From: a virus
Length of the DNA: 35,981 bases
IMG/VR virus record: IMGVR_UViG_3300044678_001935
Coordinates: 1-35,981 of that record
Reading direction: 5' to 3' (one strand)
Shown here: piece by piece, positions 1 through 35,643 of the stretch
Numbering within the stretch: the stretch's first letter is position 1
Layout of the letters: each line of letters starts with the position of its first letter
Notes under the pieces: generated by a model
Databases searched by the model: none
Told to the model about the DNA's origin: nothing
The model's input: the letters and a program-made list of their open reading frames with translations, nothing else
Translations under genes and position numbers: made by a program

Positions 1-117
1 ACTACTGGTCTTCTACTGAGGCTAGTTCTACTAATTCATGCAACGTGAACTTCAATAATGGTAACCAGAACACCAACAGTAAGACTAATACGAACTGTGT
101 CCGTGCCTTCAGGAGTG
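1..117 (+). repeat. DGR template repeat (TR), left end cut by window
   Basis: Aligns without gaps to 2434-2550. Of 117 positions, 104 are identical and 13 differ, and every differing position is an adenine here (30, 34, 42, 43, 48, 49, 54, 69, 70, 72, 75, 76, 114). All 81 non-adenine positions are unchanged. That is the signature of adenine-specific mutagenesis in diversity-generating retroelements, which makes this copy the template. It is rich in AAC/AAT codons in the frame of the target. The frame stays open to a TGA at 126-128. The true left border may lie before the window. Confidence 0.93.
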
Positions 118-124
118 GGAAATT

Positions 125-1156
125 GTGAGTGACATCACATTAGAGGAAGTCATAACAGCTTATTATGATTGTAGAAAAAATAAAAGGAACACTCAACAAC
201 AAATTAAGTTTGAATTTAAATTAGAATCAAATATTTACGATCTTTATAACGAACTTAAAAACCGAACATATAGACCGTCTTCTCATATCTATTTTATTAT
301 AACTAAACCAAAACCAAGAGAAGTTTGGGCTGCTAATTTTAGAGATAGGATAGTTCATCATGTTCTTTATAATAGAACAAAAGACATAGAAAATAATTAT
401 ATTTCAAATACTTATGCCTGCCTGAAGTCTAAAGGAACTCTTAACTGTGCATACGACGTACAGAAAAGTTTGAGAAAACTTTGGCCAGAAAAAGATGTCT
501 ATAGGTTTATTCATGTGGATATCGCTAATTTCTTTGTATCCATTGATAAAAAGGTGTTAAAAAAATCATTTCTACCAACTATAAGAGATGAATTTTCTAA
601 TTATCTTGCTAATATTTTTATTGACCAAGACCCAACTAAAAATTACTATTATAAAGGCGATCAAAAGTTAAGAAGACTTATAATTGAAAGAAAAACTCTT
701 TTCAATAAAGATACAGGATTACCAATTGGTAATTTAACATCACAATTGTTTGCAAATTTTTATTTGAGTGATTTTGACCATTATTGTAATTCTTTGACTC
801 CGTATTACTTTCGTTATATGGACGACATGCTTTTTTTAATACCTAAAACAACTAATAGGAGTCAATTCTTAGAAAATATTAATAATTATCTTAAAACTCT
901 TAATCTTAAATTAAACGATTCTAAGACTAAGCATAATAGACTTGATGTTGGAATTAATTTTGTTGGTTATGTAATTAGACCTTTTTCCATATATGTTAGA
1001 AATTCAACAAAATACAGAGCAAAAAGAGCCATAAATACCACATCTATAAACTCATACTTCGGTCTTTTAAGAAAAGTTAATACATACAATTTAAGAAAAC
1101 ATATCGCAACAATCAATAATTTAAACATGTTTTATTATCAAAAAATCATTTTATGA
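125..1156 (+). CDS. DGR reverse transcriptase
   Basis: This 343-residue reverse transcriptase should copy the template-repeat RNA into mutagenised cDNA that replaces the variable repeat of the target gene. Visible motifs are the first catalytic Asp in VDIANFF (about residue 132), GLPIGNLTSQ (198-207) and YMDD (231-234). The IGxxxSQ form of the fourth motif is typical of DGR enzymes and separates them from group II intron and retron enzymes. The length is normal for the family. The start is GTG at 125, supported by AGGAG at 111-115, which lies inside the end of the template repeat; the family-typical N-terminus (ITLEEVITAYYDCRKNKR) begins directly after it. The stop overlaps the next start (ATGA). 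No separate avd accessory gene is seen nearby. Confidence 0.95.
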   Translation: MSDITLEEVITAYYDCRKNKRNTQQQIKFEFKLESNIYDLYNELKNRTYRPSSHIYFIITKPKPREVWAANFRDRIVHHVLYNRTKDIENNYISNTYACLKSKGTLNCAYDVQKSLRKLWPEKDVYRFIHVDIANFFVSIDKKVLKKSFLPTIRDEFSNYLANIFIDQDPTKNYYYKGDQKLRRLIIERKTLFNKDTGLPIGNLTSQLFANFYLSDFDHYCNSLTPYYFRYMDDMLFLIPKTTNRSQFLENINNYLKTLNLKLNDSKTKHNRLDVGINFVGYVIRPFSIYVRNSTKYRAKRAINTTSINSYFGLLRKVNTYNLRKHIATINNLNMFYYQKIIL

Positions 1157-2058
1157 AAACAATAATAACAATAGATGGTGGCCTTGGTCGCGCCATCACT
1201 GCCTTGCCTGCATTGATTTATTATGCACAACATAATAAAGATTTTAATGTAATGATTCATGGTTGGGATTTTGTAACCTGGGGAATTCCAGAATTACAAA
1301 ATAGAACATTCAACCCTGAAACCAAAGGAGTCTTTGATAATTATTTCTGGAATGCTGATAAGGTTATCGCACCAGAGCCCTATAGAATTCCTGATTATTA
1401 TAGAAATGAAATCTCTCTAATAGAGGCCTTTCATCAAGAAATCAATAATTCAACAGATTACGATAATTTACCAAAAGATTATTTTAGGCTTTCGGTTTTT
1501 GAAGAACTGAAAGGTCATGAGGTTGTTCATTATGCAAAAGAGCATCAGAAAAAACAAAAAACTATTGTAATTCAGCCTTATGGTAGTACAGCCAATAAAT
1601 GTCCGATGGGAGTTTATGATCCATCATTCAGGTCTATTCCCGAGAAGATGTATGTTAAGTTAGTCAATCTCTTATCAAAAGACTTTAATATAATTTATAT
1701 GGGAGCTGTTGAGTTTCAGGACTATCTCTCTTATAAACCTCAACCAGATCCGAGTCTAAGAGATTGGGCTGGTATTATTAAGGCTGCTGATTATTTTATT
1801 GGTTGTGATTCTTGTGGTCAACATATGGCAAAAGCCGTGGGTAAGGACGCATCTGTATTTCTAGCCGGAACTCATAGAAAGAATGTATCTTATGAGGACT
1901 TTCATATCATTGAACGGGATGATCATTATTATCCGGCTCCTATGAGAATTTGTTCTTATGATAGTACCTTGGCTTGTAGATTAAATGAAGATAGAATAAA
2001 CTTTACCGAAGATGAAATTATGGAGACCTATGAACAGATTATGGAAAGAGCTAAATAG
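1153..2058 (+). CDS. glycosyltransferase family 9-like protein (heptosyltransferase-like)
   Basis: A 301-residue protein with a GT-B look. An N-terminal glycine-rich turn (DGGLGRAITALPAL, residues 8-21) is followed by a C-terminal half with IQPYGS, and by a donor-site-like segment DSCGQHMAKAVGK that resembles the GT9/ADP-heptose transferase pattern. The donor and acceptor are unknown. It overlaps the reverse transcriptase stop by four bases and ends 20 bases before the DGR target, so the three genes are probably co-transcribed. A glycosyltransferase between the reverse transcriptase and its target is unusual. It might modify the tail protein or a surface glycan, but that is inference. Confidence 0.65.
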   Translation: MKTIITIDGGLGRAITALPALIYYAQHNKDFNVMIHGWDFVTWGIPELQNRTFNPETKGVFDNYFWNADKVIAPEPYRIPDYYRNEISLIEAFHQEINNSTDYDNLPKDYFRLSVFEELKGHEVVHYAKEHQKKQKTIVIQPYGSTANKCPMGVYDPSFRSIPEKMYVKLVNLLSKDFNIIYMGAVEFQDYLSYKPQPDPSLRDWAGIIKAADYFIGCDSCGQHMAKAVGKDASVFLAGTHRKNVSYEDFHIIERDDHYYPAPMRICSYDSTLACRLNEDRINFTEDEIMETYEQIMERAK

Positions 2059-2078
2059 TTGAGAGTTATTGAATTTTT

Positions 2079-2561
2079 ATGGCGATAGTAGTAGGTCCTT
2101 CTGATTGGTGGGTAGCAACACCAGATGCTATAAACGGTTTAGCCGCTGCTTGCCCTGAAGGTACTACATTGCCGGATGGAAGTAGAATTATCTGTAGGGC
2201 TGGTGGAGTTGCCTGGATTGTTGCTCCTTCCTCCACGGAAGTTGGTCAGACCTGGAACAATTCAACAACCACATTAGTCGGGAATAAGTGTTGTGTTTCT
2301 GATTGGCCTACGTTATGCGCCAGACTTATTGCTTGTGGATTTAATCCAAATGATTGGTGTGTTCCGAATATGACAGATTTAAATAATCCTGGTTATGTTT
2401 GTAGATCTAAGTGGGATACTTTCTCGGCCACTGACTACTGGTCTTCTACTGAGGCTAGTTCTCCTATTTCATGCGGCGTGGGCTTCTATAATGGTAACCA
2501 GTTCGCCGGCAGTAAGACTAATACGAACTGTGTCCGTGCCTTCAGGCGTGTAACATATTGA
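2079..2561 (+). CDS. DGR target protein, C-type-lectin/DUF1566-like, hypervariable C-terminus
   Basis: A 160-residue protein likely displayed on the tail or another virion surface to bind receptors. The C-terminal part (WCVPNMTDL near 93-101, YWSST at 120-124, CVRAFR at 151-156) matches the DUF1566/C-lectin fold used by many DGR targets. The variable repeat covers codons 119-157. Nine codons differ from the template: P129, I130, G133, G135, Y137, F142, A143, G144 and R157; the template has Asn, Thr or Ser there. Several Cys residues could form disulphides. There is no strong Shine-Dalgarno; ATG at 2079 is the first start after the preceding stop. The reading as a receptor-binding protein comes from family knowledge. 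Confidence 0.9.
   Translation: MAIVVGPSDWWVATPDAINGLAAACPEGTTLPDGSRIICRAGGVAWIVAPSSTEVGQTWNNSTTTLVGNKCCVSDWPTLCARLIACGFNPNDWCVPNMTDLNNPGYVCRSKWDTFSATDYWSSTEASSPISCGVGFYNGNQFAGSKTNTNCVRAFRRVTY
2434..2550 (+). repeat. DGR variable repeat (VR)
   Basis: Recipient copy of the template at 1-117. The substituted positions are 2463, 2467, 2475, 2476, 2481, 2482, 2487, 2502, 2503, 2505, 2508, 2509 and 2547, always where the template has A. The segment 2510-2546 is identical to the template and includes a GC-richer part, where the initiation-of-mutagenic-homing element would be expected. Homology ends at 2550, seven codon positions or fewer before the gene stop. Confidence 0.94.
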
Positions 2562-3659: not shown

Positions 3660-3702
3660 CTGGCACACAAGCCATGACGTATCCAGGAATCTGTGGTAAT
3701 GT
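3660..3702 (+). promoter_or_regulatory. promoter with CTGGCACA box
   Basis: CTGGCACA (3660-3667) ends 29 bases before the -10 element TAATGT (3697-3702). A weak -35 (ATGACG, 3674-3679) sits at 17-bp spacing, and TGTGG precedes the -10 as an extended element. The predicted start is near 3709, 77 bases before the gene at 3786. The segment 3681-3714 is nearly repeated at the next promoter. Confidence 0.65.
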
Positions 3703-3785
3703 ATCTGGACATTGAGAAATCTTATTATTAGTAATGATTTATTGTTAATTAACTTAAGATTAAAAACAAATTGAGGTGAGTATTA

Positions 3786-4285: not shown

Positions 4286-4314
4286 TTGACAAATCTAGGA
4301 ATCTGTGGTAATGT
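4286..4314 (+). promoter_or_regulatory. sigma70-type promoter
   Basis: A perfect -35 TTGACA (4286-4291) is followed by a 17-bp spacer ending TGTGG and by -10 TAATGT (4309-4314). The region 4293-4326 differs from 3681-3714 at only three positions, so the two promoters share an origin. A CTGGTCA motif lies at 4277-4283 but not at the 29-base spacing seen elsewhere. The predicted start near 4321 gives a 30-base leader. Confidence 0.75.
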
Positions 4315-4350
4315 ATCTGGGCACTGTACAATCAATTTTATTATTTAATT

Positions 4351-4728: not shown

Positions 4729-4978
4729 ATTTCATAATAATAGTAATGTATCAGAGAAGTGTAAAGTTTTAATTGATGAGTCAATAAATCCCGATTCTGA
4801 GCCCCTGGAGGACTTTATTGCTTTTTTAATGGAGAAGATGGTTGAAGGTTGGGAATATATTAATTTGTCTTGGGGTTATGATAGTGCAGAATTAAGTCTT
4901 CAAAAATATAGAGACGAGACAGATCAAGAATACGCCATACGATTAAACAAGAATAAAAAGGTAAAAGCCGAGGAATAA
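4712..4978 (+). CDS. hypothetical protein
   Basis: An 88-residue acidic protein (MKILIEFHNNSNVSEK...). I prefer ATG 4712 to a TTG two codons earlier. It overlaps the preceding gene by 17 bases, preceded by TTGGAGAT, a weak ribosome site. The C-terminus is charged. The family is unknown. Confidence 0.6.
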   Translation: MKILIEFHNNSNVSEKCKVLIDESINPDSEPLEDFIAFLMEKMVEGWEYINLSWGYDSAELSLQKYRDETDQEYAIRLNKNKKVKAEE

Positions 4979-9742: not shown

Positions 9743-10194
9743 GTCGCTGTGAATATTATGATTGTGGGTGGTGTTACGCCCCTGATAATGTCATGAGTAA
9801 TAACACCAATGGAGCCTGTTATCGGCCACAGGAATGCCCTCAGATGACTAAAGAACATCAAAAACCAGATTGTCCCAAACCACAGATAATCAAAGAGGAC
9901 GTATTACCTGAAAAAACTCCTGATCTTTTTTTGGAAGATTATAGAATCAAAAAGGTTGTTAAGAACGGTGAAACTAAATTCTATCCCCAGAGAATGGGAT
10001 TCTTTAGATGGCGAAATTTTCTGCCTTTGGGCTATTCTTTTTTTCGCACTTATCATGAGGCTAACAAATACCTTTGTTATCATATCATGCAAGAGTCTGA
10101 ACGTTCTGTGGAATACTTTAATCCCGATTTTAGCTTTATTAAAAAAGAACCCAATCCTCAACCAAAAATCCCTGATGGAAGAGCTAAATTCTAA
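9739..10194 (+). CDS. hypothetical protein with Cys-rich N-terminus
   Basis: A 151-residue protein. The first 45 residues contain eight Cys in short spacings (CEYYDCGWCY, then three more pairs), a possible metal-binding or disulphide module. The rest is basic and aromatic. It overlaps the LRV-repeat gene downstream by 20 bases. The family is unknown. Confidence 0.58.
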   Translation: MSRCEYYDCGWCYAPDNVMSNNTNGACYRPQECPQMTKEHQKPDCPKPQIIKEDVLPEKTPDLFLEDYRIKKVVKNGETKFYPQRMGFFRWRNFLPLGYSFFRTYHEANKYLCYHIMQESERSVEYFNPDFSFIKKEPNPQPKIPDGRAKF

Positions 10195-10762
10195 CACCCC
10201 ACTGGAAACCTTAGAACGTCTGGCTAATGATGAGGATTGGTATGTTCGCAGTCGGGTTGCACAAAATCCCAACATACCACCAGAAACCTTAGATCGTCTG
10301 GCTAATGATGATTATATTGATGTTCGTCGTCGGGTTGCAGAAAATCCCAACACACTACCAGAAACCTTAGATCGTCTGGCTAACGATGTTTATCGGTGGG
10401 TTCGTGAGAATGTTGCAGAAAATCCCAACACATCTCCAGAAACATTAAAACGTCTGGCTAATGATAAGAGTTATTATGTTCGTTCTGGGGTTGCAAGAAA
10501 TCCCAACACACCAACAGAAACCTTAGAAAGTCTGGCGTATGATGAGTCTTGGGTTGTTCGTGTGAATGTTGCAAATAATCCCAACACATCAACAGAAACA
10601 TTAGAACGTCTGGCTAATGATGAGGATTATTGGGTTCGTGTGAATGTTGCATGTAATCCTATCATCCCACAATACATCAAAGATTATCTTAAAATTAAGG
10701 AGTTTCTGAAATCATATAATATAAAGCTTAAAACAATTTTAGTAAAAAGTATTAAATATTAA
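10175..10762 (+). CDS. LRV-type tandem-repeat protein, six units
   Basis: 195 residues of 26-residue repeats with consensus NPNTPPETLERLANDEDW, then VR and a short variable stretch; six units are followed by a capping segment (PQYIKDYLKIKEFL) and a basic tail. The repeat matches the leucine-rich-repeat-variant/HEAT-like class, which forms a curved helical scaffold for binding proteins. I place the start at ATG 10175 inside the end of the previous gene, because the repeats begin there. Five relatives lie at 29381, 29934, 32898, 33139 and 34375. The partner is unknown. Confidence 0.8.
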   Translation: MEELNSNTPLETLERLANDEDWYVRSRVAQNPNIPPETLDRLANDDYIDVRRRVAENPNTLPETLDRLANDVYRWVRENVAENPNTSPETLKRLANDKSYYVRSGVARNPNTPTETLESLAYDESWVVRVNVANNPNTSTETLERLANDEDYWVRVNVACNPIIPQYIKDYLKIKEFLKSYNIKLKTILVKSIKY

Positions 10763-18346: not shown

Positions 18347-19138
18347 ATGCTTGCTAATAATCTATTATGTAATCTCGGTCGTCTGGGTAATCAGATGTTT
18401 CAATATGCCTCGCTCAGAGGATTAGCAGCTAAGCATGATTATGAATACTGCTTACCACCAAAACAATTTCTTGGAACATTGGACCCTAATTGTGCAGTCA
18501 GTGATTGCACAATTTTTGACTGTTTTGAGCTACCAGAAGCACCAAGAATGATTCTTCAGGCTCAGACTTTAGAGGAATCTTGTTTTGAGTTAGACAAATA
18601 TCTTTGGAATTCTTGCCCGAACAATGTAACCCTTTTGGGTTATTTTCAAACAGAAAAATATTTTAAACACATAGAACAGGACATTAGAGATGCTTTTACT
18701 TTTAAGCCTTATATTACTACTCCTTGTCGTAATTATTACCTGAATAATTTTTCAACGGATACAATATCCTTACACATAAGAAGAGGTGATTATTTAAAAT
18801 ACACTCACCATCCAGTATTAGATTTGGATTATTATTATAGGGCTCTTAAAGAATTTCCAGATCTTCCTGTTTTAGTCTTTTCTGATGATCCTGAGTGGTG
18901 TAAAACCCAAGAACTATTCGCCTCTGATAGATTTAATATTTCACAATCAAACAATACAGCAGTAGATCTTTATCTTCAGTCTGTATGTAATTATCACATT
19001 ATCGCTAATAGTTCCTTCAGTTGGTGGGGTGCGTGGTTAGCGAAGAGTAAAAAAGTTATTGCACCTAAAAATTGGTTTGGTCCACCATTGACTCATAATA
19101 CCAAAGACCTATATCTTGAAGATTGGATTTTACTTTAA
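18347..19138 (+). CDS. alpha-1,2-fucosyltransferase family (GT11)
   Basis: A 263-residue GT11-type enzyme, expected to transfer fucose from GDP-fucose to a sugar. Family marks are GRLGNQMFQYA near the N-terminus (11-21), HIRRGDY (143-149, the GDP-fucose site) and SSFSWWGAWLA with KKVIAPKNWF near the C-terminus. The length is normal for the family. It opens the glycan cassette, just after a small membrane protein. The acceptor is unknown: a virion glycan, host lipopolysaccharide or capsule are all possible. Confidence 0.88.
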   Translation: MLANNLLCNLGRLGNQMFQYASLRGLAAKHDYEYCLPPKQFLGTLDPNCAVSDCTIFDCFELPEAPRMILQAQTLEESCFELDKYLWNSCPNNVTLLGYFQTEKYFKHIEQDIRDAFTFKPYITTPCRNYYLNNFSTDTISLHIRRGDYLKYTHHPVLDLDYYYRALKEFPDLPVLVFSDDPEWCKTQELFASDRFNISQSNNTAVDLYLQSVCNYHIIANSSFSWWGAWLAKSKKVIAPKNWFGPPLTHNTKDLYLEDWILL

Positions 19139-19156
19139 CCGTTACCGAGGAAGCTT

Positions 19157-19504
19157 ATGAATAATTTTGGAGAACTATTAGAGAATTGTCTTAAAGAAAC
19201 CGTAGATTCGGTTCTTTCTAAAAGAGAGGTTCCAGACATTGAATATGTTGAAACCGATAATCTAGGAGAAGTTGTAGAAAAGCTAGCTATTCTACACGTC
19301 CGAATGTGGATGCTGGAGGATCTAATCAACGTATCAACAACCGACGAAGAATTAGCAGATCTAAAACGTAAAATTGATATTTGTTTTAAACAAAAACGAC
19401 CTAAACTGGTTCAGGCAATCAACTTACTGGTGGATAACTCTATCACCAAAAATAAATCATTAAGAGAAGATTCTGTTAAAATTTATAAAGGTGTTCAAGA
19501 ATGA
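19157..19504 (+). CDS. DUF4254-like helical protein
   Basis: A 115-residue helical protein. LHVRMWMLEDLI, ADLKRKIDICFKQKRPKLVQAI and the spacing between them resemble DUF4254 proteins (HxxxWxLED ... LKRxID...RxxLIxxID), which occur beside glycosyltransferases in bacteria. I assign it to that group from memory. GAGGAAG before ATG 19157 is a fair ribosome site. It overlaps the next gene by four bases. Confidence 0.62.
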   Translation: MNNFGELLENCLKETVDSVLSKREVPDIEYVETDNLGEVVEKLAILHVRMWMLEDLINVSTTDEELADLKRKIDICFKQKRPKLVQAINLLVDNSITKNKSLREDSVKIYKGVQE

Positions 19505-20331
19505 GATATATTGTAGCTGGTCAATCTGACGCCAAAGGTGTTATTGGTGATGATTCCGCTGATTTGAATGTTTATTATGAGCTAGGTTGGGAAGTAACTC
19601 TCACAACTGTTATTGCAAAGACTCTTTTAAAAGAGGGCTCTCTATTTAAAACTGATACGATTGTAACGGCAAAGGACAGGGCCTTTTTCTACAGTAGTTT
19701 GTTTGACAATGTTATTGATTGGCATGAATTCAAACAAATAGAAAAAAGTCCAGAAGATGAAATCCATTTTCTCCCAAAGGACATAGATAACTGGTCTAGT
19801 TGGGAGAATAGAATAGATCCAGAGTTAGTCTGTAACTTTGATCTTATTACCGATGTGGAAAAAAGATTCAATGTTATCAAACCTTTCGGAATCTATTGTA
19901 TCCGGCTAAGAGATCATTGTTCTTGGAGAAACAGTAATATTGATGTTGCAAGAAGTGTAATTTCAAGATTTATCAATGAGTGTGGTATTGATATGTTTGT
20001 GATGGGTCAGAATTCTTCATTCTTATCCGAGGAGCTTGGTATTCCTAATATCTCATTACGAGAATATGCTTCTCTAATGGGTAGTAAACATTGTAAGTTT
20101 TGTGTTTCTCCAATGTCCGGTATTATTCAGATTGCTAACTTCTGTGGACACGAGAATCTATACAATTTCATTTTTGATCATAACAGCGAACGTGGACCCA
20201 CATTAGAAAACCATCCACTCTTTATGGGTAATAATATCAATCTTAAGAATGTAAAAAACATTATAATTCCTGGTCAAGAAACAGAGGAACAAATCTTTGA
20301 ATTATATGAAGAAAACGTTGTACATTCATGA
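19501..20331 (+). CDS. probable GT-B-like glycosyltransferase
   Basis: A 276-residue protein coupled to its neighbours. The C-terminal half has the pattern of a GT9-like donor site: FVMGQNS, then LREYASLMGSKHCKFCVSPM (written in two parts: LREYASLM and CKFCVSPMSGIIQIANF), followed by a loop rich in Asn. It resembles the gene at 1153 in overall plan. The substrate is unknown. The stop lies 26 bases inside the next gene. Confidence 0.55.
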   Translation: MRYIVAGQSDAKGVIGDDSADLNVYYELGWEVTLTTVIAKTLLKEGSLFKTDTIVTAKDRAFFYSSLFDNVIDWHEFKQIEKSPEDEIHFLPKDIDNWSSWENRIDPELVCNFDLITDVEKRFNVIKPFGIYCIRLRDHCSWRNSNIDVARSVISRFINECGIDMFVMGQNSSFLSEELGIPNISLREYASLMGSKHCKFCVSPMSGIIQIANFCGHENLYNFIFDHNSERGPTLENHPLFMGNNINLKNVKNIIIPGQETEEQIFELYEENVVHS

Positions 20332-21112
20332 TGAGTTATTTGCTCATGCAAGTACAAGCAGTTGGTATAATGAATCAGAATTATTTGAATGGTTAAGAGA
20401 GTACGATAAAGACTTTCTTGTTTTTACCGATAACTCAATTATGTTATCAGATTCTTATGATAATAAAAGAAAATATGCCTGGCTTGTTGAATCACCTGAG
20501 ATAAATCCAAACATATACGACTACATAAAAGTCAATTCGGATAAGTTCAATCTAGTATTTACTTTTGATAAAGAGCTACTAGAATTATCATCAAAATTTA
20601 AAGTAGCTCCTTTTGGTGGTTGTTGGATTAACGAAGAAGATAGAAAAATTCACAACAAGACCAAGTTGTTATCGGCTATTTTCTCATCAAAAAGATCAAC
20701 TTCTGGTCATTCTCTTAGAGCCGAAATAGAAGCTAATATTCCTAATTTAGATTACTTTGGTAATAAAAATAGAATTGAAAATAAGATAGAAGGACTAAGA
20801 GATTATCACTTCTCTGTTGTAGTAGAAAACACTAAAAGAGATTATTACTTCACTGAGAAGCTAATTGATTGTTTTGTAACTGGAACCATCCCAATTTATT
20901 GGGGTTGCCCTTCAATTGGAAATTTCTTTGATTCCGAAGGTATAATAACTTTTGATACAGTAGACGAGCTTAGGAATATTATTGGCACCCTAACCGTTGA
21001 ACAATATGAAGCCAAACTAGAAGCAGTTAAAAACAACTTTGTTATCGCAAAAAATTACTTAATCTGTGACGATATAATTTACAAAATACTAAAAAGACAG
21101 GAGAACCTATAA
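20306..21112 (+). CDS. alpha-1,3-fucosyltransferase-like (GT10)
   Basis: A 268-residue protein of the GT10 family, which transfers fucose from GDP-fucose. The hallmark segment is FSVVVENTKRDYYFTEKLID, followed by VTGTIPIYWGCPSI near residue 200, which forms the donor site. I chose ATG 20306 (MKKTLYIHDE) over a TTG three codons earlier. It is the second fucosyltransferase type in the cassette, so fucose is probably placed in two linkages or on two acceptors. Confidence 0.85.
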   Translation: MKKTLYIHDELFAHASTSSWYNESELFEWLREYDKDFLVFTDNSIMLSDSYDNKRKYAWLVESPEINPNIYDYIKVNSDKFNLVFTFDKELLELSSKFKVAPFGGCWINEEDRKIHNKTKLLSAIFSSKRSTSGHSLRAEIEANIPNLDYFGNKNRIENKIEGLRDYHFSVVVENTKRDYYFTEKLIDCFVTGTIPIYWGCPSIGNFFDSEGIITFDTVDELRNIIGTLTVEQYEAKLEAVKNNFVIAKNYLICDDIIYKILKRQENL

Positions 21113-21113
21113 A

Positions 21114-21725
21114 ATGTTATTAAATTTTAGAGACTTAAAAACCAAGTATAATATGAATATTACTGGTATTATTCATATTGGTGGTCATTATGGAGAGGAG
21201 ATACCAGAATACATTTCCAATGGTATTAATGATATTCTTGTGTTTGAACCACTATCGGAGAACTTCAGAGTCCTCTCTGAGAATGTAAAAAATCTGAGTG
21301 GTAACATTCATCTGTTTAATGTTGCTCTTGGGAATAGTGCCGGCCGGGCTACAATGTATGTTAGTGATAATGAGATGCAGAGTAGTTCAATTCTTCTTCC
21401 AAAGGTCCATTTAACACACCACCCAAATGTTGGATTCCCTACAACGGAAGAAGTGCAAGTTTGTGTTCTGGATTCTTATGATACTAAAGGATACAATTTT
21501 ATTAACATGGATGTTCAGGGTTATGAGCTAGAGGTTCTAAAGGGTGCAAGAGGAACATTGGCTCACGTTGACTATGTTTATTGTGAAGTCAATAGAGCCG
21601 AGGTTTATGAGAATAACGCCTACGTTGAAGATCTGGATGACTTTTTATCTCAGTACAATATGGTGAGAGTTGAAACCGATTGGGCTGGCGAAATTTGGGG
21701 CGATGCTCTTTATGTTAGAAACTGA
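21114..21725 (+). CDS. FkbM-family SAM methyltransferase
   Basis: A 203-residue methyltransferase, likely acting on a sugar hydroxyl. The SAM-binding start IIHIGGHYGEE (about 19-29), VFEPLSENF (motif II) and INMDVQGYELEVLKGA (about 138-153) match the FkbM family. It lies within the glycosyltransferase run, so O-methylation of the glycan is the natural guess. AGGAG before the ATG supports the start. Confidence 0.88.
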   Translation: MLLNFRDLKTKYNMNITGIIHIGGHYGEEIPEYISNGINDILVFEPLSENFRVLSENVKNLSGNIHLFNVALGNSAGRATMYVSDNEMQSSSILLPKVHLTHHPNVGFPTTEEVQVCVLDSYDTKGYNFINMDVQGYELEVLKGARGTLAHVDYVYCEVNRAEVYENNAYVEDLDDFLSQYNMVRVETDWAGEIWGDALYVRN

Positions 21726-21726
21726 A

Positions 21727-22365
21727 ATGAAAACATTAAACGATTATTTTGAAGGTGTCTTTTGTGTTAATTTGGAGAAAAGATCTGACCGATGGGCAAC
21801 TTGTAAAAAAGAATTTACCAAGCATAATATAGTAGCTCATAGATATTCTGCTGTTGATGGTAAAAGCCTAAATGAAGAGGTTTTTCCGAATTTAAGGAAG
21901 TTTGAGACGCCTGGTCAATTGGGTTGTCTTCTTTCTCAATATAATGTTATCAAGATCGCAAAAATGTGTAAATACTCTTCCGTTCTTATAATGGAAGATG
22001 ACGTTGAATTTTGTGATGATTTCAATGAACAGTTAGAAATCAAAATGCAAGATGTTCCAAAAGATTGGGATATGTTATTCTTCGGTGCCAATCACATCTT
22101 ACACCCTATAAAAATTACTGATAATGTTTATAGAATGACAAGGGCTTATTCCGCTCATTGTTATGCAATAAAAGATAATATTTACGATACTCTTTTAGAA
22201 TCATTATCACAATTCAGAGAACCCTTAGATGTAATTTATGCGAATCTTCAGCCAACGATTAACTCTTATGTTATCAATCCACATCTAGTCTGGCAGCGCC
22301 CAGGATATTCTGATATTTGTGAGTTGAATGTAGATTATAGGCACGTCCACAAAGTTTCGTTCTAA
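21727..22365 (+). CDS. glycosyltransferase family 25
   Basis: A 212-residue GT25-type protein (LPS biosynthesis/collagen galactosyltransferase group). FCVNLEKRSDRW at the N-terminus, LGCLLSQYNVI, the EDD donor motif in VLIMEDDVEF and a late YSAHCYAI segment are typical. I use ATG 21727 rather than an upstream in-frame ATG inside the previous gene. The sugar transferred cannot be told from sequence. Confidence 0.85.
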   Translation: MKTLNDYFEGVFCVNLEKRSDRWATCKKEFTKHNIVAHRYSAVDGKSLNEEVFPNLRKFETPGQLGCLLSQYNVIKIAKMCKYSSVLIMEDDVEFCDDFNEQLEIKMQDVPKDWDMLFFGANHILHPIKITDNVYRMTRAYSAHCYAIKDNIYDTLLESLSQFREPLDVIYANLQPTINSYVINPHLVWQRPGYSDICELNVDYRHVHKVSF

Positions 22366-22367
22366 CT

Positions 22368-23018
22368 ATGTACAATAATGTAACAATGGTTTTGACAAGT
22401 TGTAATAGACTTGATCTGTTAGAAATCACAATTAATTCTATACCAAAAGAGACATTAGATAAAATTCCAAAGAAGATTCTTATTGATGATTCTGCCGATG
22501 TACAATGTTTCTCAGAGCTAGAAAAACAAAAAGAATCAGGATATCTGCAAAACTGGACACTACTTTTCAATCAAGAAAAACTGGGCCAGGCCGGAAGTAT
22601 AGATAGAGCCTATGCCGAAGTTGAAACAGAATACGTTTTTCATTGTGAAGATGATTGGTATTTTACCAATGGAGACTTTATTGATAGATCTTTAAAAATC
22701 TTAGACAAATACGATAACGTTCTTCAGGTAACTTTTAGAGAAGGTGAACCTCATAAATCTGCCGATGAGATATATGAATCAGACCAAGACCATGCTTTTA
22801 AGGTATGGATTCCTGGATGGCAAGGTTATCCAGGATTCACTTATAATCCAAATATCTTTCGGATCAGTGCTTATCAAGAAGTAAAACCCATTTGTGGTGT
22901 TAGCGAAAGAGATGTTGGGTTTAAATACGTTTCCATGGGCTGGCACACTGTCGTTTTAGAAAATAGATCTGTTCGCCACATTGGAGACGGAAGGCATGTT
23001 CAAAATTATGTTGTTTAA
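22368..23018 (+). CDS. glycosyltransferase family 2-like
   Basis: A 216-residue GT-A protein. MVLTSCNRLDLLEITINSI is the nucleotide-binding start, FHCEDDWYF the EDD metal site (about residues 87-95), and PGWQGYPGFTYNPNIFR the acceptor-side part. It begins two bases after the GT25 stop. Donor and acceptor are unknown. Confidence 0.8.
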   Translation: MYNNVTMVLTSCNRLDLLEITINSIPKETLDKIPKKILIDDSADVQCFSELEKQKESGYLQNWTLLFNQEKLGQAGSIDRAYAEVETEYVFHCEDDWYFTNGDFIDRSLKILDKYDNVLQVTFREGEPHKSADEIYESDQDHAFKVWIPGWQGYPGFTYNPNIFRISAYQEVKPICGVSERDVGFKYVSMGWHTVVLENRSVRHIGDGRHVQNYVV

Positions 23019-23029
23019 TCAAGAATAAG

Positions 23030-23671
23030 ATGGTAAATTGTCAAGAATATTCTAATAATGGACACACTGTTATTATGGAAAATCATCTAGGGGGATTTGA
23101 AACTTCCACCGAAAGTTTTCCTAACGGTGATATGAATACTTTCAGCCCTAAACTTTGGGCGTATATTATTAAAAAATATAAAATTAAATCTGTTATTGAT
23201 GTTGGGTGTGGAATGGGATTCTCTCTTGTAGAATTCCTTAAACATTGTGAAGATGTTGTCGGTATTGATGGCTCTCCATATGCTCTTCAAAATTCACCAG
23301 TAAAAGATCATATTTTTGCTCATGATTATAGCAAGGGTGAGCTAGAGACCGAGGATCGTTATGATCTTTGTTGGTCTTGTGAATTCGTAGAGCATGTTAA
23401 TGAAGAGTACCGAGATAACTTTCTTTCAACATTTGCTTTTTCTAAGTATGTTGCAATGACATTCGCAGAACCAGGACAACCAGGACATCATCATGTGAAT
23501 TGTCAACCACAAGAATATTGGGTTGAACATTTAGCTCGCTTCGGGTTCAAATATGACGAAAAAGCAACCACATACATGAGAAGTGTTGCTAAGAAAGAAG
23601 GCGAAGAAGATGGTTATTTTAAGTATTTTGAAAAAACTGGACTATTTTTTGTAAAAGAGGATTTAACATGA
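23030..23671 (+). CDS. class I SAM-dependent methyltransferase
   Basis: A 213-residue methyltransferase. VIDVGCGMGFSLVEF (about 56-70) is the SAM-binding motif I, VVGIDGSPYAL motif II, and LCWSCEFVEHVNEEY the motif IV region of sugar or small-molecule methyltransferases. Its place between two GT2-like genes suggests glycan methylation. The stop overlaps the next start (ATGA). Confidence 0.85.
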   Translation: MVNCQEYSNNGHTVIMENHLGGFETSTESFPNGDMNTFSPKLWAYIIKKYKIKSVIDVGCGMGFSLVEFLKHCEDVVGIDGSPYALQNSPVKDHIFAHDYSKGELETEDRYDLCWSCEFVEHVNEEYRDNFLSTFAFSKYVAMTFAEPGQPGHHHVNCQPQEYWVEHLARFGFKYDEKATTYMRSVAKKEGEEDGYFKYFEKTGLFFVKEDLT

Positions 23672-24441
23672 AGAATGAAACCGTTGGTGCGCTCATGATG
23701 GTCAAAGATGAAATTGACATTATTGAGCATAATATCAATTATCTTTCAACCCAAGAATTAGATTTAATCTGTGTGTATGATAATAATTCTACAGACGGAA
23801 CCGGAGAAAAATTAAGTTGGTTATCTGATATTCATGACGAACTTCTCGTTCTGAATGATTCGGTTGTCGGTTATTACCAGGCCGATAAGATGAACAAATG
23901 GGCTAATGAAATATTTCAAGACGATATTGATGTTGTCATTCCTATTGATGCTGATGAGATATGGTATTCTAAAAATCCAAATTGTACTCTAGGTGGTGCT
24001 ATTAGAGCAACCGATGCTGATATTTTTGTGGCTAGATCTATGGATTATATCCCCACTCTTCTGGATAATTTTGGTGAACCTAATTTTATTAAAAGGATGA
24101 AGTATAGAAAGAAGGATTCTAATTCCTTTAACGCTGTTGCATTTAATTACAGCCCAGAGTTTTGGTTGGAAATGGGAAATCATAATGTTCTTAATCATCC
24201 AGGAGACAGAGTTTCCGACGTTATTGGCATCCGACATTATCAATACCGAAGTTTTGATCAATTTAGAAAAAAAGTTAGTAACGGTAAAAAAGCCTACGAT
24301 GCGACAAATCTTCCAGAATATATGGGAAGCCATTGGCGTAAATTAGGGGCTATGACTAATGATGAGTTGCGTGAATATTGGTTTGATTATTGCGTTGACT
24401 CGGTTGTAAATGATCCCTTTGTCGCTAAGAATTATGCCTAG
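23668..24441 (+). CDS. glycosyltransferase family 2-like (DxD in PIDADEIW)
   Basis: A 257-residue protein of the Glyco_tranf_2_4/GT92-like type: LMMVKDEIDIIEHNI start, CVYDNNSTDGT, then the metal site VIPIDADEIW near 90-99. Similar proteins add single sugars to bacterial or phage glycans. A ribosome site GAGG precedes the ATG. It overlaps the next gene by eight bases. Confidence 0.82.
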   Translation: MKNETVGALMMVKDEIDIIEHNINYLSTQELDLICVYDNNSTDGTGEKLSWLSDIHDELLVLNDSVVGYYQADKMNKWANEIFQDDIDVVIPIDADEIWYSKNPNCTLGGAIRATDADIFVARSMDYIPTLLDNFGEPNFIKRMKYRKKDSNSFNAVAFNYSPEFWLEMGNHNVLNHPGDRVSDVIGIRHYQYRSFDQFRKKVSNGKKAYDATNLPEYMGSHWRKLGAMTNDELREYWFDYCVDSVVNDPFVAKNYA

Positions 24442-25135
24442 ATTATCTCTAGCTATTCCTACGTGTGGCTATCACGGTAAAGGTGATGCTCTATTGGATG
24501 ATTTATTAAGAACTGTTCAGATACAATCTTTTAAAGATTTTGAGATCGTTATTTCTGATCACAGTGAAGATGATAAGATTGAAACAAAAGTGCAAGAGTT
24601 TTCAGAACTCTTTGATGTAAAATATCATAGAAATTCTGATAAAAGAGGGAATAGTCCCGCGAATCTTAATAAAGCAATCTCTTTGTGTACTGGTGAAATC
24701 ATCAAGATTATGTTTCAAGACGACTTCTTTTATGACGATGAAGCCTTTGAGAAGATTTATTATAATCTAGCTGGTGACGATTCAAAGTCTTGGTTATTAT
24801 GTGGAACAAATCACACTCAAGACAATGGGCATAATTTCTGTTGGGATATTTTTCCACGATTTAATGATAATTTATTAGACGGTGTGAATACAATTAGTTC
24901 GCCTTCCGTTGTCGCATTTAAAAAAGATGTGCTAGTAAGATTTGACGAGGATCTGATCTATCTTATGGATATTGATTTTTATTATAACATGAGAAGGACT
25001 CATGGTGAACCGATTTATTATGACGATATATTAGTCACCAATAGAATCCACCAAGATAGTATCTCTAGCAATATTACAAATAGAGAAGAACTTCTTGAAA
25101 ATGAGTCCATTTATTGTAAGAAAAAATATGATTGA
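24434..25135 (+). CDS. glycosyltransferase family 2
   Basis: A 233-residue canonical GT2: LSLAIPTCGYHGKGD, VQIQSFKDFEIVISDHSEDD (in two parts, FKDFEIVISD and HSEDD), SPANLNKAISLCTGEII, and the metal site MFQDDFFYDD. ATG 24434 lies inside the end of the previous gene; an upstream in-frame ATG is not needed. It is one of four GT2-like genes here. Confidence 0.85.
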   Translation: MPRLSLAIPTCGYHGKGDALLDDLLRTVQIQSFKDFEIVISDHSEDDKIETKVQEFSELFDVKYHRNSDKRGNSPANLNKAISLCTGEIIKIMFQDDFFYDDEAFEKIYYNLAGDDSKSWLLCGTNHTQDNGHNFCWDIFPRFNDNLLDGVNTISSPSVVAFKKDVLVRFDEDLIYLMDIDFYYNMRRTHGEPIYYDDILVTNRIHQDSISSNITNREELLENESIYCKKKYD

Positions 25136-25712
25136 TTTTATCGTACCAAGTCTTGGTCGGGAAACTCTTCCAAATTCCACCAACTCTTTACTTAATCAAA
25201 CAAATCCAAATTGGCGATGTTATGTTGGTTTTGATGGTCTGGATGAAAACCAAATTTCTTCTGATCTTCTTGTTGAAGATTCCAGAATTCAATACTTATA
25301 TCTAAAAGAAAAATTGGGAACTTCTGAGTTTCATGGTAATGCTGGTAGAGTTCGCAACAGAATAATGGAATCTATTGAGAATCCTTCCGAATGGACTGGT
25401 TTTCTGGATGATGACGATGCTCTTTCCCAGTATTACGTTGAGATTCTAAATAACGAATTAGAAAAAGAAGCCTGTGATTGTTATGTTTTTAGAATGAATC
25501 ATGGTGGAAATATCATTCCGCCTTTTGATATGAATGTTCTCCAACAGAATTTTGTTGGTATTTCTTTTTGTGTTAGAACTAAATTCTTAAAAAGCCACAA
25601 TATCGGTTTCGTAAATAACAATGCAGAAGATTTTCTTTTTCTACAAGAGATTCATAAAAATGGTGGCAAAATAAAAATTCTTCCTGTTGTTGGTTATTTT
25701 GTTAGAGTATAA
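25128..25712 (+). CDS. glycosyltransferase family 2-like
   Basis: A 194-residue GT-A protein: IVPSLGRETLPNSTNSLL, then WRCYVGFDG, GNAGRVRNRIM and the metal site GFLDDDDALS. I chose ATG 25128, which overlaps the previous stop by eight bases. It is slightly short for GT2 but has all central motifs. Confidence 0.8.
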   Translation: MIDFIVPSLGRETLPNSTNSLLNQTNPNWRCYVGFDGLDENQISSDLLVEDSRIQYLYLKEKLGTSEFHGNAGRVRNRIMESIENPSEWTGFLDDDDALSQYYVEILNNELEKEACDCYVFRMNHGGNIIPPFDMNVLQQNFVGISFCVRTKFLKSHNIGFVNNNAEDFLFLQEIHKNGGKIKILPVVGYFVRV

Positions 25713-26500
25713 TGGATAGAAATAAAGCATCTTATAAATTACAAGGATTCGGTCCTGTATATTATATCAATTTGGACGATAAAGAAGACCGAAAGGTTTT
25801 CATGGAGCAACAATTTGAACATTGGGATATTAAAAATTATGAACGAATTTCTGCTTTTGATGGAAGAAATAGTGATCTAAGTGAACACATTATCGGTAAG
25901 TATCCTGAAGGAATAACGACTCCCGAGCTAGGATGTACTTTATCACATTTGAAGGCTATAAAGCATTGGTATGACACGTCTGATACTCCTTATGCGATCA
26001 TTTGTGAGGATGATTGTCTGATTGATAATGCAAAGCATTGGAGCTTTACCTGGCAGGAATTCATGTCTAGAGTTCCTTATTGCTGGGATTGTCTACAATT
26101 AGCGATCATATCAACGGGGAATATCTCAGTCAATATCCACACGAGATTTGTTAACAATTTCTCCACTGCGATATACTGTATTAATCGTAGATACGCAGAG
26201 AAGTTATTGTCATTTCATTGTAAAGGTAATAAATTTAAATTGGATCAAAATATCAAGCCAAGAGCGGTTGCCGACGATTTGATCTATAATGGTGGCCTGA
26301 CCTTCTCATCACCAATATTTTTGTATGAGTTACGATTAGGAAGTTCAATACATGGTGAGCATTTGGATTTATTTCATAAGAAATCTTATGAAGGTCTGAG
26401 CAATTTTTGGTTTAATCAAGGAAAAGATATGTCTTTGGAACAAATAACTTTCTTTGATCCTTATTTCAGTAGAATTACAAACCCTGAACCCGTAGAGTGA
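25712..26500 (+). CDS. glycosyltransferase family 25
   Basis: A 262-residue GT25-type enzyme: YYINLDDKEDRKVFM, LGCTLSHLKAIKHW, the metal site AIICEDDCLI and a late ADDLIYNGG. It is the second GT25 in the cassette and about 50 residues longer than the first. The start overlaps the previous stop (TAATG). It closes the cassette; a strong promoter follows within 20 bases. Confidence 0.85.
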   Translation: MDRNKASYKLQGFGPVYYINLDDKEDRKVFMEQQFEHWDIKNYERISAFDGRNSDLSEHIIGKYPEGITTPELGCTLSHLKAIKHWYDTSDTPYAIICEDDCLIDNAKHWSFTWQEFMSRVPYCWDCLQLAIISTGNISVNIHTRFVNNFSTAIYCINRRYAEKLLSFHCKGNKFKLDQNIKPRAVADDLIYNGGLTFSSPIFLYELRLGSSIHGEHLDLFHKKSYEGLSNFWFNQGKDMSLEQITFFDPYFSRITNPEPVE

Positions 26501-32616: not shown

Positions 32617-32644
32617 GGTAGAAAGCTAAGAGATTAGCTTCATC

Positions 32645-32691
32645 CGTTGACTGGAATTCTCCAGTGGAAGTAGTCTTATGACGAAGCAACG
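32645..32691 (+). ncRNA. glutamine riboswitch-like RNA (glnA / Downstream-peptide type)
   Basis: A three-stem junction: CGTTG (32645-32649) with CAACG (32687-32691), then CTGGA-ATTC-TCCAG (32651-32664), then the invariant-looking GGAAGTAG (32666-32673), a short stem TC-TTAT-GA, and CGAAG (32682-32686). GGAAGUAG, CGAAG and AACGC are the marks of the glutamine aptamers of cyanobacteria and marine phages. The closing stem differs from the common CGUUC/GAACG by a compensated pair. A short ORF with a good ribosome site follows, as in the Downstream-peptide class. Confidence 0.8.
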
Positions 32692-32721
32692 CGAAATTCC
32701 ACTTTCAATTAGGAGAAAACC

Positions 32722-33703: not shown

Positions 33704-34387
33704 ATGAGACCCGATGTAAAACTTATAGCCATAACTCAGGGGGCAGGAGATCTTGTCAATAAAAATGCACAAGAGGTTATTTCTTATGTCGCTAGAGTTA
33801 GTAATCCAAATAATCAGCTAAATTTTGATACAGCTAGCGGACTCATTAGATACTGTATTAAAAATAAACATGTAAGCATTTTTGAACATTCTTATATGAC
33901 GCTGGAGATCAATACAACCAGAGCGATTGCGGCTCAAATTTTGCGCCATAGATCCTTTTGTTATCAAGAATGGTCCCAAAGATATTCTGATGTAAATTCT
34001 TTAACAGAAACGATAGTGGTTCCAGAACTTCGTAGGCAAGACACTAAGAACCGACAAAATTCTATTGACGATCTTGATAAGGAAGTTAAGCAGTCTTTTG
34101 AAGATGAAATTAAAGATTATTTCAAACAAGGACAAGAACTTTATAATTCGCTTCTTGATAATGAAGTCGCAAAGGAATCAGCACGTTTTATTTTGCCGTT
34201 AGCAACACCAACAAGAATTTATATGACGGGCAATGTTCGTTCTTGGATGACATATATCGCTCTTAGAGAGAAAAATGGTACACAGAAAGAGCACCAAGAC
34301 ATTGCAAAAGAATGTAAGCTCATCTTTAAAGAGCAGTTTCCAGATTGTTATGAGGCTTTAGGTGGGGGCGAAGAATGGACTATCTAG
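33704..34387 (+). CDS. thyX: flavin-dependent thymidylate synthase
   Basis: A 227-residue ThyX, which makes dTMP from dUMP using FAD, NADPH and methylene-tetrahydrofolate. The signature RHRx7S is present as RHR (81-83) plus Ser91 in RHRSFCYQEWSQRYSD. RFILPLATPTRIYMTGNVRSW near 170-190 completes the dUMP/FAD site. The length is typical. A good ribosome site (AGGAG) precedes ATG 33704. ThyX is frequent in cyanophages and supports phage DNA synthesis. It overlaps the next gene by 13 bases. Confidence 0.95.
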   Translation: MRPDVKLIAITQGAGDLVNKNAQEVISYVARVSNPNNQLNFDTASGLIRYCIKNKHVSIFEHSYMTLEINTTRAIAAQILRHRSFCYQEWSQRYSDVNSLTETIVVPELRRQDTKNRQNSIDDLDKEVKQSFEDEIKDYFKQGQELYNSLLDNEVAKESARFILPLATPTRIYMTGNVRSWMTYIALREKNGTQKEHQDIAKECKLIFKEQFPDCYEALGGGEEWTI

Positions 34388-35643
34388 ATTACTTACAACA
34401 ATACCGCGAAAAATATCATTTAGATGATATCTTCAATCACAATAATAATGCTGATGTAGAACAAGTAGAGAAGTATATTGGGGAATTATGCGGTGTTTCT
34501 TATGTTTTACTTGAGTTGTTTTGTGGCGCGCGTTCGGAAGAACATTACAAAGGTGGACGGACGTTCCCAAGCAATATTCATAGATTTGTTATGAAAAATA
34601 GTGTATTAGAAAATACTGGTAAAGAACCGAAAAACATTGATTATCTTACCAGAATGCTGGTGACAACTCTAGGTAATCCCGATTCTGAGATTTTAGATTC
34701 TATAGCAAGAGAAAATAATCCAGTAATAAACAAAATTATTTCACGCCACCAAAACACATCAAGCGACACTTTGATGTATCTTGCGTCTTCCAACATTTAT
34801 GCTTCAAGTATTATTTGTCATAGTAATATAACCTCTGATGTTTTATTGGAGATAACAAAAGTCTTATTATCTGATCTAAGTAAAAAAATTTTTTGGGTTC
34901 AATATCCAGAATGTGATGATTGGGACTTTGTTCAGAAACTTCCTTATGTAAGTGGAAAGCCGAGTGGAAGGATATTAGATTTTTTGGAATATATTGTGGG
35001 CTCTTCTAATTTTAATGAGGATACGATGAAGTTGTTTTTATCGGTAGACGATGAAACAATGAAAACGTTAGTGTGGGATCAAATCTTTTATAGTATGGGT
35101 AGAAATCCTTATATTTCACCTCAAATAATGGATATATTGTGTGGGGATCAATTCGTTACTTTAAAGTATAATGGCGTTCTTGAAAATCCTAATGCGCCTA
35201 AACATATTTTAGAAAAGTATTCAACACATAACAAAATGTTTTATCGTGAGCGTGTTGCATATAATACTAACACACTAACAAAAACATTAGAACGTCTGGC
35301 TAACGATAATCATCCTGATGTTCGTTGTGGAGTTGCATGTAATCTCAACACATCACCAGAAACATTAGAACTTCTGGCGAATGATGATAATCGTTGGGTT
35401 CGTCTTAGGGTTGCAAAAAATCCAAACACACCCACAGAAATACTAGATCGTTTAGCTAATGATAAATCTTGGGGAACTTTGGAAGAGGTTGCTCATAACA
35501 GAAATGCTTCAGTAAAAACGTTACAAAATATTATTAATAACTTAGAAACTTTTGAAAGAAAAGGTGATTCTAGTGATTGGCTTATTGGACATCTTAAAGA
35601 TTTTTGTACTCAACGATCTTTATTTTTAACGTCTAACTCGTAA
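34375..35643 (+). CDS. large LRV-domain protein
   Basis: A 422-residue protein. The first 270 residues are helical and contain degenerate repeats (NPDSEILDSIARENNPVI; NPYISPQIMDILCGD). Residues about 300-380 hold three clear LRV units (LERLANDNHPDVRCGVAC and two more), followed by a non-repeat end. It is therefore a longer, older relative of the short LRV genes, without their cap. It starts inside the thyX end. The function is unknown; a protein-binding scaffold is likely from the repeat class. Confidence 0.72.
   Translation: MDYLDYLQQYREKYHLDDIFNHNNNADVEQVEKYIGELCGVSYVLLELFCGARSEEHYKGGRTFPSNIHRFVMKNSVLENTGKEPKNIDYLTRMLVTTLGNPDSEILDSIARENNPVINKIISRHQNTSSDTLMYLASSNIYASSIICHSNITSDVLLEITKVLLSDLSKKIFWVQYPECDDWDFVQKLPYVSGKPSGRILDFLEYIVGSSNFNEDTMKLFLSVDDETMKTLVWDQIFYSMGRNPYISPQIMDILCGDQFVTLKYNGVLENPNAPKHILEKYSTHNKMFYRERVAYNTNTLTKTLERLANDNHPDVRCGVACNLNTSPETLELLANDDNRWVRLRVAKNPNTPTEILDRLANDKSWGTLEEVAHNRNASVKTLQNIINNLETFERKGDSSDWLIGHLKDFCTQRSLFLTSNS

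Follow-up and report, generated by a model that had tools for sequence, protein, structure and literature searches.

Diversity-generating retroelements (DGRs) are well known and common in phages. The DGR of Bordetella phage BPP-1 is arranged as mtd-avd-TR-brt, and there a template RNA is converted by the reverse transcriptase (RT) together with Avd into adenine-mutagenized cDNA, and this cDNA takes the place of the target gene's 3′ end. The locus described here is like that of BPP-1 in the class and motif of its RT, in the adenine-specific differences between template repeat (TR) and variable repeat (VR), in the target-Avd-TR-RT order seen in its relatives, in a template of about 134 nt (as annotated in BPP-1) and in the C-type-lectin fold, predicted here, of the target. 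It differs in belonging to a T4-like phage, whose genome is much larger, in its Lcl/DUF1566-type target, in the position of the visible target downstream of the RT and beyond a glycosyltransferase-like gene, in the several targets of its relatives, and in that Avd is not visible. The closest RTs of GenBank phages among the matches listed belong to Burkholderia phage Magia, Pseudomonas phage Haboob and Shewanella phage vB_Sb_QDWS, which at 37–39% identity are far more distant than the uncultured relatives (59–65%). The DGRs of these three phages include Avd relatives that are 33–35% identical, and their genomes of 45–50 kb are not T4-sized. The tentaclin phages likewise combine one DGR with more than one C-type-lectin target, so that two-target phage DGRs are already known, but these are gut phages with another target architecture (PMC10743442). 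The Legionella Lcl C-terminal domain (DUF1566, PDB 8q4e) resembles the target in sequence profile and predicted fold but belongs to a trimeric bacterial surface adhesin, and the text of the paper on it mentions neither diversity generation nor phages.

The stretch of DNA analyzed here (the window) is taken from a 99,981-bp IMG/VR record, classed as linear, and covers its bases 1 to 35,981; inspection of the record showed that contig base 1 is window base 1. The window very likely carries a Bordetella-type DGR of a T4-like, probably cyanobacterial, phage, which would mutate a lectin-like adhesin by the steps proposed below. Its features are:

1–117, plus strand: template repeat, visible part, with 36 adenines and 10 AAY codons in the frame of the VR
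125–1156, plus strand: DGR RT, 343 aa, GTG start, motifs VDIANFF, GLPIGNLTSQ and YMDD
1153–2058, plus strand: heptosyltransferase-like protein (phrog_8954), between RT and target
2079–2561, plus strand: target protein, 160 aa, predicted Lcl_C/DUF1566-like C-type-lectin fold, VR at the C-terminus
2434–2550, plus strand: variable repeat with adenine-specific differences to the template and nine changed codons
2529–2545, plus strand: 3′ repeat end, TGTGTCCGTGCCTTCAG, the same in TR and VR and kept in relatives

The two repeats differ at 13 positions, all of which (13/13) are among the 36 template adenines, and the non-adenine positions are identical throughout (81/81). Under random placement, the probability that all 13 differences fall on A is 3.7e-8. 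The earlier note had described the repeat pair accurately, and a recount of the altered codons in the target also returned nine (129, 130, 133, 135, 137, 142, 143, 144, and 157). The 13th difference, A114 to C, coincides with a site at which other family members carry a fixed TR/VR difference (AGGAGTGG versus AGG[T/C]GTGT, just past the conserved 3′ core), which leaves 12 that can safely be counted as mutagenesis-type changes. In relatives, the match between template and variable repeat begins about 17 nt further upstream and has a full length of about 134 nt, which indicates that some 17 nt of the template 5′ end are cut off by the contig start and that the full template would measure about 134 nt. 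By the same comparison, VR homology probably starts near 2417. The VR of the window and that of a second contig discussed below (L019) have TTCTCGGCCACT in common just upstream of the position equivalent to base 2434, a sequence expected from the missing template segment. The segment at 2529–2545 is a candidate retrohoming initiation site (IMH) by analogy with BPP-1. Beyond 2434–2550, no further VRs were found in the 99,981-bp record.

The open reading frame at 125–1156 matches Pfam RVT_1 (2e-14) as well as PHROG 1423, and contains the GLPIGNLTSQ and YMDD motifs from which it had been called a DGR-type RT, a call on which motif, PDB match and tree agree. Its top PDB match is 8ub7 (1.7e-26), which is labeled only “Reverse transcriptase” and which we take to be the BPP-1 RT. 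In a tree of 24 rows, which includes group II and Cas1-linked RTs and leaves out retrons, the window RT groups with its uncultured relatives (support 100/100), and the DGR enzymes of Magia, Haboob and vB_Sb_QDWS form the sister clade (94/92). It lies inside the set bearing the SQ motif ([LIV]GxxxSQ), apart from group II and Cas1-linked RTs; deeper splits in the tree are weak. Tree placement had been named as a possible refutation by the earlier note, and the window RT falls with the DGR enzymes. The plasmid RTs ShewPl and RT_Apil, first labeled “other”, also carry the SQ motif, fall within the same set and may be DGR enzymes themselves. An assignment to group II intron, retron or DRT enzymes was rejected on NCBIfam scores far below the cut-offs and on the tree (which is without retrons).

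The target scores 25.5 bits against Pfam PF07603, below the gathering cut-off of 34.9, and its kinship with Lcl_C/DUF1566 therefore rests on profile and fold matches. The profile match to the Lcl C-terminal domain reaches 2.7e-12. A structure model built from a 29-sequence alignment has a pLDDT of 82 (an earlier model from a shallower alignment only 51), and its best PDB match is again the Legionella Lcl C-terminal domain (3.5e-5); the lower-ranking matches are weaker and mostly to C-type lectins. With good confidence, the predicted fold is C-type-lectin-like, and the lectin-like character claimed for the target holds by profile and predicted fold alike. In the model, the changed residues 129–144 lie in or adjoin predicted strands 130–135 and 141–145, within the segment 126–145. 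A search of the target against 50,697 phage records gave no match. The gene at 1153–2058 is probably a neighbor outside the DGR: phrog_8954-type genes also lie near DGR targets in relatives, and many cyanophages that lack a DGR match have them too. A role as DGR accessory factor was rejected, since its relatives occur in many cyanophages, none of them among the RT matches listed.

The record also encodes a T4-type ssDNA-binding protein, baseplate wedge, tube cap, head closure and baseplate hub, as well as a long tail fiber protein, and the nearest relative of its ssDNA-binding protein is that of Synechococcus phage B23 (54%). The T4-like identity proposed earlier is borne out by these genes, cyanophages being nearest. 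The source is a large T4-like virus closest to cyanophages; its hosts are aquatic and probably photosynthetic bacteria, and the window's own phage presumably infects cyanobacteria. A psbA match was absent from the 99,981-bp record, and the major capsid protein family PF07068 gave zero matches in this partial record and also zero in controls. The first 20 kb had no DNA match in an isolate search of 50,697 phage records.

No Avd gene was found in the 99,981-bp record, which starts inside the template. In relatives, Avd (PF22296, 67 bits) lies directly upstream of the template. A scan of uncultured viral contigs for Avd returned twelve loci, among them cassettes of Avd, RT and target (G004/G002, L078, L079, L080/L081, L082/L083, L084 in G015, and L085), all with the gene order target-Avd-TR-RT. 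This order places Avd and probably a first target off the window contig, and Avd presumably lies just upstream of it in the window's phage. With the Avd gene missing from the record and the template cut by the contig start, the system cannot be called complete, as it had been. The cassette appears, from these contigs, in at least seven distinct uncultured lineages and is T4-like in context wherever the contig is long enough for testing, namely in G004, where the same T4 gene block and a full DGR share one contig, in G011 and its twin G012, and in G015, all by the ssDNA-binding protein and G015 also by a full-length match to the same tail-fiber family; the short contigs L078, L082/L083, and L085 stand outside this count. 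The 125-kb G011 combines a full DGR with a T4-type ssDNA-binding protein at 73% identity to those of Synechococcus phages; its psbA shares 99% identity with the one in Synechococcus phage S-SKS1, and these genes identify one cassette lineage as a psbA-bearing Synechococcus-type phage.

Nine TR/VR pairs were pooled: the window's own, the L019 VR compared with the window's template, and seven pairs found in relatives. Template adenines occupy 370 of the 1105 positions and account for 169 of the 175 differences (P about 3e-85 if positions are independent). The template of L079 (= L004) was excluded from this count. Its differences to its VR (L004 7860–7992) show no preference for adenines, and the template may stem from a chimeric assembly or have been overwritten by variable sequence.

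The remark in the earlier note that such an element is unusual in this phage type holds for isolates, since no T4-like phage appears among the matches listed from the 88 records with a related RT in 50,697 phage records; it does not extend to the uncultured lineages that carry the cassette. Sequence comparison supports a DGR that is rare among sequenced isolates and repeated in uncultured relatives. The words T4-like and cyanophage are absent from the main text of a global DGR survey, whose metagenome data set may include such elements (PMC8144416). A search of the open literature, which excludes subscription papers and supplements, turned up no account of DGRs in T4-like phages or cyanophages.

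One template may serve several targets. In G015, a single template corresponds to three targets, one of them about 5.5 kb downstream of it, with all differences at adenines (15/15, 20/20, and 18/18); non-adenine sites are identical in each pair (93/93), while the flanking gene parts differ by 6–10%. Among viral contigs, only one other copy of the window's template was found, in L019 (contig 3300042556_001633), where a second gene carries a copy with all 12 of its differences to the window's template at adenines. The VRs of L019 and the window agree at all non-adenine sites (77/77), those at third codon positions among them (36/36), and the two targets have 25 of 100 residues in common upstream of the VR. 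The identity at non-adenine sites argues that L019 is another part of the same phage or of a very close relative. The set of glycosyltransferase-like gene, target and “MKLYSPPN” gene around the window's target recurs in G006 and G019; this conserved locus makes it most likely that the phage has two or more targets and that the window's is the distal, second and downstream one.

In the proposed mechanism, the template RNA would be copied by the RT together with an Avd protein encoded off the contig, with misincorporation at template adenines during copying. Starting at the conserved 3′ repeat end, the cDNA would then take over the 3′-terminal part of the target gene and rewrite adenine-encoded residues on the binding face of a C-type-lectin-like adhesin, which most likely sits on the tail. 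Such a diversified adhesin would therefore give the phage population many binding specificities. The earlier note had called the element active-looking. The pattern fits recent retrohoming, yet near-identical relatives from different samples have identical VRs (three contig pairs, uninformative if the samples are related), and there is therefore no direct sign of ongoing change. Current activity in the window's phage can only be inferred.

Several relatives appear to have lost the mutagenic core. In G007 (L086), Avd is interrupted near residue 42 and the sequence continues with the RT tail; in G017 (L103), Avd 1–57 is fused in-frame to RT 284–343; G009 and G022 retain about 33 Avd residues; and in G019 an oxygenase gene directly follows the target. 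No full RT was found on any of these five contigs, and their targets stay open. The deletion sites are L103 6511–6870, L086 4001–4126, L087 2410–2502, L055 8337–8435, and L105 1–600. Because the junctions differ, the sequences suggest separate deletion events, each from a single assembly. A tentative generalization, for which the odds are somewhat short of even, is lineage-wide multi-target hypermutation in T4-like cyanophages, in which one template would serve several lectin loci and some lineages drop the Avd/template/RT core and keep the lectins, the core being the disposable part. T4-like cyanophages rank among the most thoroughly studied viruses of the environment. Directed mutagenesis with several targets, together with apparent repeated loss of its engine, offers a testable answer to how they keep up with host surfaces that vary, and intact and core-deleted lineages provide a setting for comparison.

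These losses also lend some substance to the reading of the window's element as a remnant, with Avd truly missing or the core decaying and the VR a frozen record of past mutagenesis: five relatives lost the core and kept their targets, and the record contains no Avd. This reading is rather improbable: the RT has its full length and its motifs are intact, comparison of the template with two VRs over 112 nt reveals no non-adenine difference, and the template is simply where the record begins. Far less probable still is an assembly artifact, a chimera of population variants, even though the contig starts at a repeat and the L004 template looks overwritten; all differences lie at one base of one copy on an identical non-adenine backbone, the RT adjoins the repeat, and independent contigs show the same pattern.

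A working DGR with a target that serves some other binding role (decoration, exclusion or particle attachment) is unlikely, though somewhat less so than a remnant. The target is short (160 aa) and without an obvious tail-anchoring N-terminal domain or other recognizable anchor, unlike that of G011, and the L037 target has a different N-terminus and no fiber gene nearby in the ORF list of its contig. Against this, the targets of G004 and G011 lie directly downstream of tail-fiber genes, that of G011 begins like a fiber protein, and tail fiber is the commonest DGR target prediction in a virome survey (PMC7981956). The preferred reading is Bordetella-type retrohoming into a target that is probably a receptor-binding lectin, with receptor tropism switching a reasonable expectation from gene position and fold.

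Several further observations concern the phage genomes. A glutamine riboswitch lies at window positions 32643–32695 on the plus strand (RF01739, 43.8 bits, above the gathering score). Leucine-rich-repeat-variant (LRV) units build several proteins (window 9956–10762 and 34375–35643; record 68–100 kb), and the far end of the record also lies inside an LRV repeat. A block at window 18347–26500 contains glycosyltransferase genes, with families 11, 10, and 25 among those tested. A small-gene region contains direct repeats of 47 nt (83%) at window 3675–3721 and 4287–4333, with a shorter 21-nt relative at 4743–4763. In G015, the T4-type ssDNA-binding protein gene lies in two ORFs with about 480 bp between them (L097, G015:C1:20700-22500), without an Rfam intron match. 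Finally, ORFs resembling aminoacyl-tRNA synthetases and a nicotinamide phosphoribosyltransferase-like protein were noted by eye at record positions 87281–88768, 92973–95324, and 96342–97691.
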